Shown here: in pieces, positions 1 to 44,337 of the stretch
How the letters are laid out: every line of letters begins with the position of its first letter
Numbering within the stretch: the stretch's first letter is position 1
Assembly (NCBI RefSeq): GCF_000381045.1
Contig: NZ_KB905746.1
Span: forward strand, 1 to 44,337
Length of the DNA: 44,337 bases
Reading direction: 5' to 3'
Source: Thermus scotoductus DSM 8553
GTDB taxonomy: Bacteria > Deinococcota > Deinococci > Deinococcales > Thermaceae
Translations under genes and position numbers: made by a program
The notes under the pieces: model-generated
What the model saw: the letters and a program-made list of their open reading frames with translations, nothing else
Database searches by the model: none
Told to the model about the DNA's origin: nothing

Positions 1-236
1 GGTGGACACGGATTGGGTACAATGTTCTTGGGGACAAAGTTCCCCGTGGACCTTGAAACTTGGAGTAGGGGGTTCCATCGGGTAGTCCGATGGGTAAAAC
101 TCCAAACGAACACCCGTGGCAGAGCCAGAAGCATTGCGCTCGCCTGCCGATACGGAGCCAAGGTCTTTCTGGGCCTGGACGGGGCCTTCGGGAGCAGTCC
201 CGAGAAGCCCCGGACTTTAGTCCGGGGAGTCGTCAC
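1..236 (+). repeat. Structured repeat, copy 1 (left part outside the window)
   Basis: This is about 95% identical to 18872-19134 and to the reverse complement of 44055-44337. It ends at the right with a 9-bp hairpin (CCCCGGACT, loop TT) followed by AGTCGTCAC, a layout typical of IS200/IS605 right ends. It contains the nested stem TTGGAGT/ACTCCAA enclosing CCATCGG/CCGATGG, and the stem CGGGA/TCCCG at 189-202 with loop GCAG. Compared with the other copies it lacks a 27-nt hairpin module just after position 202. An open frame crosses it on the plus strand, but the frame shows no known protein motif and is better explained by scarce stops in GC-rich DNA. Confidence 0.85.
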
Positions 237-1238: not shown

Positions 1239-2151
1239 GGGCCACCTCCTTGAAGTAGTGGGCGTAGACCTCGTCCAGGCTGGGACGGCGGAGGGAGAGG
1301 CTTAGAAGCTCGCCCTGCTCCACGGCTATCCGGGCCAGCTCCGGCCGGAGGTCCCGGCTGGAGAGAATCCGGTACCGTCCTCCCTCCGCTGCCACCCGGG
1401 CCACGCCTTCCAGGCGGCGGAAGGCCTCCTCGAGGCCCGGGCTGGCCTCCACCAGGATCTCGTACCCACCCCCTAAGACCCTTAGCGCCAACTCCTCCAC
1501 GGTGCCCAAAAGGGCGAGGTGCCCCTTATGGAAAAGCCCCACCCGGTCGCAGACCTCCTGGACCTGGTGCAGGAGGTGGCTGGATAGGAGGATGGTGATG
1601 CCCTCCGCCTTCAGGCCCTTGATGAGCTCCAGAAACTCCCGGGCGGCCTCGGGGTCCAGGCCCAGGGTGGGCTCGTCCAGGATGGCCACCTTGGGCCTCT
1701 TCAAAAGCACCTCCGCAAGCCCGAGGCGCTGCCGCATCCCCCGGCTGAAGGCGGAAACCCGCCGGTCCCGCACCTCCCACAGGCCCATGCGCTTGAGCAC
1801 CTCCTCTATGCGGGCCTTGGCCTCCGTCTCCGGTAGCCCCAGGAGCCTTGTGGTGTAGCGCAGGTTCTCCCAGGCGGTGAGTTCCCCGTAAAACCCCACC
1901 TGGTCGGGGAGATAACCCACCCGGCTTTTCACCTTCAAGGGTTCCCGCATGGGGTCTAAGCCCAGCACCCGGGCCTCGCCCCGGGTGGGTTCGGTGAGGC
2001 CCAGGAGCATGAGGATGGTGGTGGTCTTCCCCGAGCCGTTAGGCCCCAGGAGGCCGAAGACCTCCCCTTCCTGCACCTCCAGGTTCAGGTCCTCCACGGC
2101 CACCACCCGTCCGTAGCGCTTGGTGAGGCCATGGGTTTCGATGACCGCCAT
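1228..2151 (-). CDS. ABC transporter ATP-binding protein
   Basis: This 307-residue protein has a single nucleotide-binding domain and a C-terminal extension of about 90 residues, as in NosF/CcmA-type exporters. Walker A is GPNGSGKT at residues 36-43. The Q-loop Gln is near residue 84, the signature motif is at 135-142, Walker B is VAILDEP at 155-161 and the H-loop His is near 192. The signature reads FSRGMRQR rather than LSGGQ, a variant common in this exporter group. The ATG start has a GGAGGT box that sits across the stop codon of the NEW3 gene, from which it is separated by 1 nt. It powers the permease encoded downstream. Confidence 0.93.
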
Positions 2152-17191: not shown

Positions 17192-17866
17192 CTAGATGGG
17201 CTCCAAAACCCCTTGGCGCAGGAGGGCGGGGAGGGGAGGCTCCCCCACCCTTAAGAGGGCGTACCGCCCCCGAAGAAGGGCGAGGAGGCGGAGGGCTTTT
17301 AGGTGCCCCTCGAGGGCCTTTTGGTATGCCCTTACCTCCTCCGGGCCCACGGGGAGGGTTTCCCCGGTTTCCACGTCCTTGAGGAAGGCTTCCTCGAGGG
17401 GCGGGGCCAGCTCCAGGGGCGCCAGGACCTGGACCAAGACCACCCGTTTCGGAAGGATCCTGGGCCAGGGCAAGGGGTCTAGCCCATCGGTGATGAAGAC
17501 CAGGGTGCCCCGGCCCGGGCGAAGGGCTTCCGGTCTGCCCCGTTCCAGCCGGGCCAGGGCGTCCTCCTGGCGGGCGATCCCCAGGAGGAGCCTCGCCACC
17601 TCCTCCCCGTAGGCCAGCTTGCCGAAGAGGCGCATGCTTTCGCTTTCGTCCAGGTAGATGCGGAAGCGGCTTCGCTCGGGTGTGGTTTCCAGGCGGGTGT
17701 AGAGCCTTCCCGTCTTCCCGTAAGCCCGCCAGTGGACCCGCCTTATTTCGTCCCCAGGGGCATAGGGGCGGAGCTCGTAAAACTCGCCTCCCAGGCCCTT
17801 CCTGCGGGCCAGGCGCTCTCCCGGGTAGGGAAGGTAGGGCCGGGTGGCGATGCGGTAGCGGGTCAT
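17192..17866 (-). CDS. DUF58 (vWA-like) domain protein
   Basis: This 224-residue protein carries the DUF58 core GDEIRRVHWRAYGKTGRLYTR, followed by a vWA-like half with IYLDESESM (degenerate MIDAS: DxSxS) and VFITDGLDPL. DUF58 proteins often act with MoxR ATPases, but none is nearby. The ATG at 17866 overlaps the stop of the reductase gene (ATGA). The shared start gives tight coupling to a gene with no obvious functional link. Confidence 0.88.
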   Translation of the reverse strand: MTRYRIATRPYLPYPGERLARRKGLGGEFYELRPYAPGDEIRRVHWRAYGKTGRLYTRLETTPERSRFRIYLDESESMRLFGKLAYGEEVARLLLGIARQEDALARLERGRPEALRPGRGTLVFITDGLDPLPWPRILPKRVVLVQVLAPLELAPPLEEAFLKDVETGETLPVGPEEVRAYQKALEGHLKALRLLALLRGRYALLRVGEPPLPALLRQGVLEPI

Positions 17867-19233
17867 GCCGTCCGGCAGAAGGTGCAGACCCCCACCGGGG
17901 GCAGGGGTTCGATGACTTCCTCCCGGCTTCCCTCCCGGAAGACGGTGATGCCCTTGCACCCCTCCTTCCAGGCGGTGAGGAAGAGGTTTTCCACCACCTC
18001 CTTGGGGGTTTCCCGGGGGAGGTTCACCGTAGAGGAGATGCTTTGGTCCACGTGGCGTTGTAAGGTGGCCTGGAGGTGTACCCTCTGGAAAGGATCCACG
18101 GTATGGGCCGTGGGCCAGTCCGGCACCTCGCCTCCTCGTTCCCTGCGGTACCGCTTCAAGAGGGGATGTTCCGCCAAAAACACCTGGTGCTCCCGGGGTG
18201 TGGTGAAGGAAAGCGCCCAGGGTTTGTCGGCCAAGGCGGCTTGTAAAAAAGCGTCCGTGGCCCTTAGGGAGATGTTGGCGTGGCGAACCCGGCTTCGCTC
18301 GGGGTCGGTTTTGACCTGGAGGAAGTCCAGGAGGTCGGGATGGGTGTCGGAGAAGGTGAGCATCAAGGCACCCCGCCGGCCCCCGCTGGCCCCCATGACC
18401 CCCGCCAGGGTGGAGAAGAGCTCCATGAAGCTCACCGCCCCCGAACTCTCCATGCCTGCGTTGCCCACCTTAGCCCCCTTGGGCCTCAAGGTATCCGCAT
18501 TGCTCCCCACCCCGCCCCCGTAGGCGAAGATGCGGGCGGCCTCGTCCAGGAAGCGGGTAATCCCCTTCACCGAGTCCTCCCCGATGGGGATGTAGTAGCA
18601 GTTGAACAGGGTGGACCGGCGCCAGTTCCCCAGGCCGAAGAGGATCCGTCCCCCGGGGACAAAGCGAAAGTCGGAGAAGAGCCAGGAGAACTCCTGCGTG
18701 GCTCCCTTTTCCACCCGGGTGACTCCTTGGACGAGCCGCTGCCACATCTCCTCTGGGGTGGCTTCCAGGAGCCTGCCTTCCGGGTCCTTTAGAGAAAAGA
18801 GGGGGTGTGGGGGAGCTATAATCCCCCGGTTTTTAAACCGGGGATACATGGACTCCCCCACGTCCACCACGGGTGGACACGGATTTGGTACAATGTTCTT
18901 GGGGACAAAGTTCCCCGTGGACCTTGAAACTTGGAGTAGGGGGTTCCATCGGGTAGTCCGATGGGTAAAACTCCAAACGAACACCCGTGGCAGAGCCAGA
19001 AGCATTGCGCTCGCCTGCCGATACGGAGCCAAGGTCTTTCTGGGCCCGGACGGGGCCTTCGGGGGAAACCCCGCGTGCTTTCCCGCAGGGAAACACCCCG
19101 AGAAGCCCCGGACTTTAGTCCGGGGAGTCGTCACGGCGTAGCGGTGGAGGAACACGGAGGCCCTAAGCTCATCGCCCTGGAAGAAATCCAGGGCAAGCCT
19201 TAGGGCTTCTTCCCGGGCGTACCAGCGGGGCAC
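17863..19233 (-). CDS. nrdJ: Class II (B12) ribonucleotide reductase, internally deleted and carrying repeat copy 2 in frame
   Basis: The open frame codes for 456 residues. Residues 1-33 and 148-456 align by eye with NrdJ. Residues 34-147 (114 codons) are exactly the repeat. The first half keeps STLFNCYYIP (Cys212, the reducible active-site Cys), AYGGGVGSNADTLRPKGAKV and SGGRRGALML. The C-terminal part keeps LQRHVDQSISSTVNLP and GITVFREGS, plus a CTFC end. The central part with NPCGE (the radical Cys and Glu), the GSIN region and the PTGTI loop is missing between about residues 345 and 380. So this protein cannot be a normal reductase; it is a pseudogene or an altered paralogue. GTG start, with TAGACT 6 nt upstream overlapping the glpX stop. 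Confidence 0.8.
   Translation of the reverse strand: MPRWYAREEALRLALDFFQGDELRASVFLHRYAVTTPRTKVRGFSGCFPAGKHAGFPPKAPSGPRKTLAPYRQASAMLLALPRVFVWSFTHRTTRWNPLLQVSRSTGNFVPKNIVPNPCPPVVDVGESMYPRFKNRGIIAPPHPLFSLKDPEGRLLEATPEEMWQRLVQGVTRVEKGATQEFSWLFSDFRFVPGGRILFGLGNWRRSTLFNCYYIPIGEDSVKGITRFLDEAARIFAYGGGVGSNADTLRPKGAKVGNAGMESSGAVSFMELFSTLAGVMGASGGRRGALMLTFSDTHPDLLDFLQVKTDPERSRVRHANISLRATDAFLQAALADKPWALSFTTPREHQVFLAEHPLLKRYRRERGGEVPDWPTAHTVDPFQRVHLQATLQRHVDQSISSTVNLPRETPKEVVENLFLTAWKEGCKGITVFREGSREEVIEPLPPVGVCTFCRTA
18793..19134 (+). mobile_element. Structured repeat, copy 2 (complete, 342 bp), inserted in nrdJ
   Basis: Removing 18793-19134 restores an uninterrupted NrdJ frame (RYA-LKDPEG), which defines the ends. 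The left flank ends TTTAG and there is no target duplication, as in IS200/IS605 insertion. Near the left end is CCCCGGTTT-TT-AAACCGGGG (18824-18843); near the right end is CCCCGGACT-TT-AGTCCGGGG (19106-19125), 9 nt from the boundary. Between them are stems GTCCACC/GGTGGAC (18862-18878), GGGGA/TCCCC (18901-18916), TTGGAGT/ACTCCAA enclosing CCATCGG/CCGATGG, GGCCC/GGGCC (19043-19057) and CGGGG-GAAA-CCCCG (19060-19073). A TTTCCC/GGGAAA hairpin follows. No transposase is encoded. Confidence 0.85.
18817..18822 (+). promoter_or_regulatory. Perfect -10 box inside the left end of repeat copy 2
   Basis: TATAAT in the plus direction, just before the left hairpin, could start a transcript that runs through all the stems to the right end. 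No -35 is evident. The transcript would be antisense to nrdJ. Confidence 0.4.
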
Positions 19234-40660: not shown

Positions 40661-40737
40661 GGCGGCGTAGCTCAGGTGGTCAGAGCACACGACTCATAAT
40701 CGTGGTGTCGTGGGTTCGAGTCCCACCGCCGCCACCA
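40661..40737 (+). tRNA. tRNA-Met (anticodon CAT)
   Basis: The 77-nt cloverleaf has acceptor GGCGGCG/CGCCGCC, D-arm GCTC, anticodon stem CACGA/TCGTG with loop CTCATAA (anticodon 40695-40697) and T-arm GTGGG-TTCGAGT-CCCAC. The discriminator is A, and CCA is encoded. The first base pair is G-C, which rules out the usual initiator. The anticodon could also belong to tRNA-Ile2 (modified C34), but the sequence fits elongator Met better. Confidence 0.9.
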
Positions 40738-43500: not shown

Positions 43501-44058
43501 GTGTACTCGGGGGCGGTGATCGCCGGGGGGCTTTCCCGCAGGTTTGGGGAGGATAAGGCCCTTTACCCCTATCGGGGAAAGCCCCTGATCCAGTGGGTTT
43601 TGGATAGCCTAAAGGAGGCGGGGGAGCGGTTCATCGTGACCAACAGGCCCTATCCTGGCTTTGGCGTGCCCGTGTATCCCGACCTGCTCCCGGGGGCGGA
43701 TAGCCTTTCCGGCCTGCACTCCGCCCTCTTTCACGCCCGCTACCCCTGGGTGGCGGTGGCGGCCACGGACCTGCCCTTTCTGAGGCCGGAATACTGGGCC
43801 TTTCTTTATGAGCACGCCCTGGCCTCCCCTTACCCGGTGGTGGTGGCCTACAACCCGGAAGGCCACCTCGAGCCCCTCATGGCCTTCTACCACCAGGACT
43901 GCCTTCCCCAGGTGGAGTTGCAGATCCGGGAAGGGGATTTCCTCCTGAGGCGGGTGATGGAGGTGTTGGGGGCCACCTATATCCCAGCGGAGGAGGTGGT
44001 GGTGCGCTTCGGCGCCCAGGTCTTCCTGAACGCCAACCGCAAGGAGGAGCTTCCGTGA
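43501..44058 (+). CDS. mobA: Molybdenum cofactor guanylyltransferase
   Basis: This 185-residue nucleotidyltransferase attaches GMP to molybdopterin. AVIAGGLSRRFGEDKAL at 5-21 is the GTP-binding loop with the Lys that follows. VAATDLPFL carries the Mg-binding Asp, and HLEPLMAFYH is the family motif. The last codon (CCG) and the stop TGA come from repeat copy 3, so the native C-terminus, normally continuing a few residues past the FLN(A/V)N segment, may be trimmed. It starts with GTG, 3 nt after the preceding gene. Confidence 0.9.
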   Translation: MYSGAVIAGGLSRRFGEDKALYPYRGKPLIQWVLDSLKEAGERFIVTNRPYPGFGVPVYPDLLPGADSLSGLHSALFHARYPWVAVAATDLPFLRPEYWAFLYEHALASPYPVVVAYNPEGHLEPLMAFYHQDCLPQVELQIREGDFLLRRVMEVLGATYIPAEEVVVRFGAQVFLNANRKEELP

Positions 44059-44337
44059 CGACTCCCCGGACTAAAGTCCGGGGCTTCCCAGGGTGTTTCC
44101 CTGCGGGAAAGCACGCGGGATTGCTCCCGAAGGCCCCGTCCGGGCCCAGAAAGACCTTGACTCCGTATCGGCAGGCGAGCGCAATGCTTCTGGCTCTGCC
44201 ACGGGTGTTCGTTTGGAGTTTTACCCATCGGACTACCCGATGGAACCCCCTACTCCAAGTTTCAAGGTCCACGGGGAACTTTGCCCCCAAGAACATTGTA
44301 CCAAATCCGTGCCCACCTGTGGTGGACGTGGGGGAGC
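44055..44337 (-). repeat. Structured repeat, copy 3 (left part cut by the window end)
   Basis: This reads on the minus strand. It has the same order of stems as copy 2, with the extra TTTCCC/GGGAAA hairpin present. Differences from copy 2 keep pairing: GGTGGAC becomes GGTGGGC opposite GTCCACC, GGGGA becomes GGGGG opposite TCCCC, and CGGGG-GAAA-CCCCG becomes CGGGA-GCAA-TCCCG. The right end GTCAC lies inside the mobA stop codon. The left end, with the promoter and terminal hairpin seen in copy 2, is beyond the window. Confidence 0.85.

Follow-up and report, generated by a model that had tools for sequence, protein, structure and literature searches.

The window analysed here, a stretch of 44,337 nucleotides from Thermus scotoductus DSM 8553, is one whole contig (C18 of 84), and both of its ends fall within copies of the same repeat. 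This raises the question of what the repeat is and what it encodes. The original prediction described a mobile, protein-free element with a conserved RNA structure in three copies, and all three are present:

1..236, plus strand: copy 1, element positions 80-342 minus a 27-nt insert; cut by the contig start.
18793..19134, plus strand: copy 2, the whole element, 342 bp, 3' of CCTTTAG and without target duplication.
44055..44337, minus strand: copy 3, element positions about 60-342; cut by the contig end.

The contig begins and ends inside the repeat, where the assembly breaks, which leaves copies 1 and 3 incomplete; copies at contig ends are possibly assembly mixtures. Copy 2 begins with AGAAAAG at 18793 and ends with GTCGTCAC at 19134. 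The genome as a whole gave 51 BLAST matches to the element, ranging from full length to end fragments. One plus-strand frame is open in copy 2, but the indels between copies, which include +16, +17, -1 and -2 nt, break the frames, and a protein-coding remnant was rejected. No conserved protein gene was found in the element, as these indels are not multiples of three; the claim that the repeat does not belong to such a gene therefore held.

The joined 250-bp flanks of copy 2 are continuous in three Thermus genomes (G004, G023 and G008) at 97-99% identity, and comparison of these empty sites with the flanks of copy 2 revealed zero bases gained or lost. The site reads CCTTTAG/GGCGTAGCGG, with the insertion 3' of TTTAG. 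Other left ends are mostly preceded by TTAG and less frequently by TTAC, TTAT or TTAA. This insertion pattern is of the IS200/IS605 type. Copy 2 interrupts a ribonucleotide reductase gene (PF02867) and lies antisense to it. The interrupted reductase frame stays open because 342 is a multiple of three and the element has no stop in that frame. The reductase gene (window 17863-19233, minus strand) also lacks its central part in comparison with G004 and G023; it therefore looks dead and is probably a pseudogene.

The original prediction also pointed to IS200/IS605-like ends, and the left one contains the following features:

18793..18863, plus strand: left end (LE), common to tnpA/tnpB elements.
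18824-18843, plus strand: LE hairpin CCCCGGTTT..AAACCGGGG, within the outer stem GTGGGGGAG/CTCCCCCAC.

Two other elements of the same genome carry these ends (positions 1-71 and the final ~93): a tnpB-only element of 1.37 kb (L032/L046) and, with a weaker match, a tnpA+tnpB element of 1.72 kb (L033/L058). Because its ends are common to tnpA+tnpB and tnpB-only elements of its own genome, the element is a non-autonomous IS200/IS605 element (PATE/MITE). Full-length relatives with tnpA or tnpB between the same ends, which the original prediction had proposed to look for, thus exist in the same genome; its statement that there is no transposase is right for the element itself. The tnpB of L033/L058 encodes 402 aa and matches ISDra2 TnpB (8bf8, E=2e-56), and the RuvC D/E/D motifs IGIDLG, HEDLN and HRDVAAARN are, by eye, kept. 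Its tnpA encodes a 138-aa Y1 transposase, and an intact TnpA is thus present in the same genome. TnpA was detected in only 5 of the 27 Thermus genomes, and none was detectable in G001 and G002, though both hold many element matches. As a separate observation, the LE hairpin loop carries inserts of 24 or 45 nt (CCAAGATAGCCCT...CAGGCTGACC) in L005, L009, L022 and L032.

Between its ends the element contains a predicted promoter and a ~140-nt segment, termed the core, which extends from the -10 box to stem P7:

18889..18894, plus strand: -10 box TACAAT, preceded by TG-n (extended -10); predicted promoter.
18901..18916, plus strand: P1 hairpin GGGGA..TCCCC, boxB-like, with covariation; predicted 5' end of the RNA.
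18920..18929, plus strand: boxA-like GACCTTGAAA, immediately following P1 on its 3' side, an order also seen in Thermaceae 16S leaders.
18931..18976, plus strand: P3 (TTGGAGT/ACTCCAA), enclosing AGGGGGTT, P4 (CCATCGG/CCGATGG) and GTAAAAC.
18989..19019, plus strand: P6 module GGCAG..CTGCC followed by GATACGGAG; stands alone in short-core variants.

In nearly all copies a TACAAT or TATAAT box precedes P1 by 6-7 nt. A consensus scan requiring a -35 box found none, so the promoter would be of the extended -10 type.

The case for a conserved RNA had originally been made from the differences between the three copies. These were quoted correctly: stem 19060-19073 is CGGGG-GAAA-CCCCG in copy 2, CGGGA-GCAA-TCCCG in copy 3 and CGGGA-GCAG-TCCCG in copy 1, and the GGCCT/GGGCC pairing of copy 1 and the G-U changes of copy 3 are as described. 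Three copies prove little alone, and it is larger alignments, of 25 and 39 copies, that raise the covariation. The 25-copy alignment (Thermus, Meiothermus and viral contigs) contains 11 double-changed pairs versus 6.7 in shuffles, and 47 double-changed cells versus 15.6. In the 39-copy alignment of the core, 30 of 40 pairs show a double change, against a shuffle mean of 8.1 and 7-12 when the partners were slid by 1-3 columns, and paired cells make up 96%; because this alignment had been fitted to the model, its percentages favour the structure, and the slid control shows to what extent. Covariation is strong in P3 and P4. In L225 helix P3 is almost wholly replaced (TTGGAGT/ACTCCAA to TCAAGGT/ACCTTGA), while AGGGGGTT and GTAAAAC are kept. 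Indels between copies of the core are located in loops and are often not multiples of three. A further candidate stem, P5, was rejected because it conflicts with PK1. Palindromic inserts occur in core loops of Meiothermus.

Twenty Thermaceae genomes contain the core, as do the viral contigs L142, L143, L150 and L166. A class-wide model search (111 genomes) found, outside the Thermaceae, only one 16S leader from another family, and a pattern scan of GTDB gave matches in Thermus and Meiothermus only. Pattern matches on viral contigs L177 and L178 were discarded as coding sequence by eye, and no core was seen on viral contig L176. TnpB occurs in 19 of 20 core-bearing genomes versus 22 of 30 family genomes without the core; this co-occurrence is weak evidence because TnpB is so frequent among the latter. 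A search of eight Thermus tnpB elements with the core model did not detect the core, and its being part of tnpB was rejected, as was an origin antisense to tnpA/tnpB, since the core has no internal match to the tnpA+tnpB locus. The core is thus a separate RNA module that supplements the original prediction, in which its antitermination-like 5' part also went unnoticed.

The 3' domain has a different affiliation. Its last ~93 nt match the 3' ends of tnpB elements, including ones on non-Thermus viral contigs, and are organised as follows:

19043..19057, plus strand: P7 stem GGCCC/GGGCC with loop GGACG; scaffold start, common to tnpB elements.
19049..19052, plus strand: 5' strand GACG of PK2, pairing with CGTC at 19129-19132; analogue of ISDra2 (PMC10097598).
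19060..19100, plus strand: P8 stem CGGG/CCCG with a variable insert.
19106..19125, plus strand: P9, the right-end (RE) hairpin CCCCGGAC-TTTA-GTCCGGGG; double change in 6 of 7 counted pairs.
19126..19134, plus strand: tail AGTCGTCAC, the 3' boundary of the element, holding the 3' strand of PK2.
19135..19150, plus strand: predicted guide GGCGTAGCGGTGGAGG, in flanking DNA and identical in the empty site of three relatives.

An alignment of scaffolds from MITEs, minis, Thermus tnpB elements and tnpB elements of non-Thermus viral contigs gave one fold of P7, P8, P9 and tail, with 98.5% of cells paired and 8 double-changed pairs, mainly in P9. PK2 (GACG/CGUC) is 97-100% paired and nearly invariant; in the type-A scaffold the pairs of P7 and PK2 hardly vary, and PK2 adds no covariation of its own. 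That its strands can pair is indicated by analogy with ISDra2 and by a second type of tail. In L230 (G029, match 1501-1681, minus strand), the core is followed by an IS605 right end of another type, whose tail is GTGGTTTAC; an upstream GTAAACC can pair with this tail to give a pseudoknot GUAAACC/GGUUUAC. L230 has its 3' end in common with a tnpB element from Allomeiothermus silvanus. Because L230 joins the core to a second type of IS605 right end, the core behaves as a module.

In the cryo-EM structure of the ISDra2 omega-RNA, the tail pairs with a GGAC-type loop further upstream to form a pseudoknot, and beside the tail stands an RE stem capped by a UUUA loop (PMC10097598). The UUUA-loop RE hairpin, the loop-tail pseudoknot and the flank-derived guide of the ISDra2 TnpB omega-RNA (reRNA; PMC10097598, PMC8612924) all have likenesses in the element, and both have a short fixed motif on the LE side (TTGAT in ISDra2, TTTAG here). 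By this analogy, the flank GGCGTAGCGGTGGAGG is predicted to be the guide. Unlike ISDra2, the element does not overlap tnpB, its stem 1 is a short hairpin with a 5-nt loop, and the core precedes it. Because the 3' domain matches tnpB 3' ends and follows the scaffold layout of ISDra2, the last ~93 nt are most likely part of a stand-alone TnpB omega-RNA gene. An omega-RNA is by custom encoded at the 3' end of tnpB; the element is without tnpB, and TnpB would act in trans. The two readings offered originally, a stand-alone omega-RNA or an RNA-carrying MITE, both fit and appear to be one thing, of the TnpB type and not the IscB type that had been named beside it.

Variants of the element bear on whether this scaffold is expressed by itself. 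In short-core variants (L072, L279, L280, L282 and phage phiLo) a -10 box lies at a similar distance before P6, and in rare minis (L086, phiLo L095 and L157) it lies directly before P7, leaving a bare scaffold. Such fusions of promoter and bare scaffold were seldom seen, namely in 1 of 50 Thermaceae genomes, in one phage and on one viral contig. Judged from their sequences, the three kinds of element differ only in the length of the RNA leader between promoter and scaffold. This modular order of promoter, leader and scaffold is our best argument that the scaffold would be transcribed alone.

Our preferred reading, which we regard as probable, is that the repeat is a non-autonomous transposon of the IS200/IS605 type and that the one gene it carries specifies a stand-alone TnpB guide RNA with an antitermination-like leader. 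The promoter near the left end would start an RNA at P1, which would comprise the conserved core as leader, the TnpB omega-RNA scaffold up to the right end, and the flank as guide. TnpA and TnpB would be supplied in trans by full elements with the same ends; TnpA would move the element, and TnpB loaded with its RNA would cut chromosome copies with an empty TTTAG+guide site. Repair of the cut empty site from an occupied copy would restore the element. Thermus is polyploid and naturally competent, and retention by cut and repair could for this reason be effective. The boxB-boxA-like site may keep RNA polymerase going on the untranslated RNA, and P3, P4 and P6 may stabilise the RNA or bind a partner. 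A more far-reaching version can be put forward only tentatively, as a possibility somewhat short of even: a guide-RNA-only transposon with its own promoter and an antitermination leader that forms a new RNA family, modular before at least two TnpB scaffolds, borrowing transposase and nuclease and present also on viral genomes.

The alternative that survives best is a plain PATE/MITE, in which the terminal DNA hairpins, as sites for TnpA, are all that matters, while the scaffold is a remnant of tnpB deletion and the core a passenger RNA of unrelated function. Palindrome-associated transposable elements (PATEs) are non-autonomous IS200/IS605 derivatives (Halanaerobium, PMC7290912; Haloquadratum, PMC3119063) and, like the element, are short, protein-free and equipped with both hairpin-bearing IS605 ends. 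Ends-only derivatives with tnpB 3' remnants are known, the Halanaerobium PATE retaining the RE together with the final 58 nt of tnpB (PMC7290912). Here, too, the LE and RE hairpins are TnpA-type sites, and the shortest variants lack the core. However, the element adds to the PATE plan a promoter at fixed spacing and a conserved, covarying RNA core, which the tnpB elements examined lack and which spans Thermaceae genera and viral contigs. TnpA does not need core covariation. Between Thermus and Meiothermus, the core (identity 0.90), P7 (0.92) and the tail (0.97) are far better conserved than the spacer (0.56) and the P8 loop (0.44), and the variants hold the -10 box 6-7 nt before the first stem regardless of cargo. 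We therefore consider the plain PATE unlikely.

The RNA might instead be a decoy that loads TnpB unproductively and shields MITE copies or empty sites from the guide of the autonomous element. The many copies (51 matches) against few tnpB genes would suit such a role, and a core ahead of the scaffold could block activity. Yet the tail and the guide-providing flank are intact and the bare-scaffold variants resemble minimal active RNAs, which makes a decoy improbable.

In its 5' part the core has a hairpin with ACCTTGAAA after it, an arrangement similar to the boxB-boxA antitermination signal found in rRNA leaders of Thermaceae. Thermaceae 16S leaders start with a hairpin and then GGATCTTGAAAA, GGACCTTGAAAA or GAACCTTGAAAG, in place of which several Meiothermus leaders have CTTGACAAAG; the core has the P1 hairpin and then G[GC]ACCTTGAAAC. 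One Thermus rRNA leader (L243) shares GGACCTTGAAA with the core, and the layout is alike in most leaders. CTTGAAA lies 3' of P1 in nearly all cores, and both strands of the remaining window together contain it a single time. A weak match to the core model in the class-wide search (L229) turned out to be a 16S rRNA leader. Both the rRNA signals and the element have a promoter, a hairpin and (G)ACCTTGAAA at the start of a non-coding transcript, and the 5' part of the core thus looks like an rRNA-type antitermination signal. In the common (type-A) core, CCUUG of boxA can pair with a downstream CAAGG (P2), which would hide boxA; this CUUG/CAAG pairing is uncertain in our model. A known parallel is the occurrence of boxA sites before CRISPR arrays, as described where PMC7862264 cites Stringer et al. 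In contrast to the signals of rRNA and CRISPR leaders, that of the element is located in a transposon-borne omega-RNA leader with conserved P3, P4 and P6.

The same hairpin and boxA, together with the position of copy 2 within a gene, could mean that the core is mainly a processive-antitermination RNA that eases the polarity of insertions on host operons, with the omega-RNA part incidental. However, copy 2 is antisense to the interrupted gene and therefore cannot protect that transcript, and the conservation of the scaffold equals that of the core; we rate this explanation as very improbable. An IscB/HEARO-type guide RNA, which the IS200/IS605-like ends might have suggested, is extremely improbable, as there was no HEARO match at E<=5 and the homologues of the scaffold are the 3' ends of tnpB genes.

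The originally proposed Rfam search with HEARO and omega-RNA models thus gave no match, and neither gathering nor relaxed thresholds yielded anything in the window beyond one tRNA and chance matches. The tRNA gene (40661-40734, plus strand) was the sole match at the gathering threshold. PMC literature searches found no description of the element. Stand-alone omega-RNA loci have been reported for IscB. These and the element are alike guide RNA genes without an adjoining nuclease gene; the element differs in that its scaffold is of the TnpB type and its predicted guide lies at the 3' end. If our reading is true, a TnpB guide RNA can exist as a selfish gene of its own that exploits a transposase as well as a nuclease; this would be a step in the direction of the split guide/effector layout of CRISPR-Cas12, and boxA protection of a guide RNA would extend beyond CRISPR arrays and rRNA. 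The many natural guides in cultivable thermophiles would also offer a testable system.

Several further observations concern the scaffold and its carriers. Five viral contigs (L152, L154, L161, L162 and L167) hold non-Thermus tnpB elements with a GGCCCGGACGGGGCCT..GAGTCGTCAC scaffold, a widespread TnpB omega-RNA type that had no Rfam match in the search of the window. A small insert of palindromic sequence, GTGCTTTCCCGCAGGGAAACAC with a near copy reversed, occupies the P8 loop (window about 19073-19100) and is also present inside the tnpB of L032; palindromic inserts of this kind are possibly tiny mobile hairpins. In Thermus phage phiLo (MH673673; L172-L175, e.g. 84091, 150634 and 45678), several tnpB elements occur beside a bare-scaffold mini, an element with a short core and a deletion derivative, and every one of them has a guide of its own.
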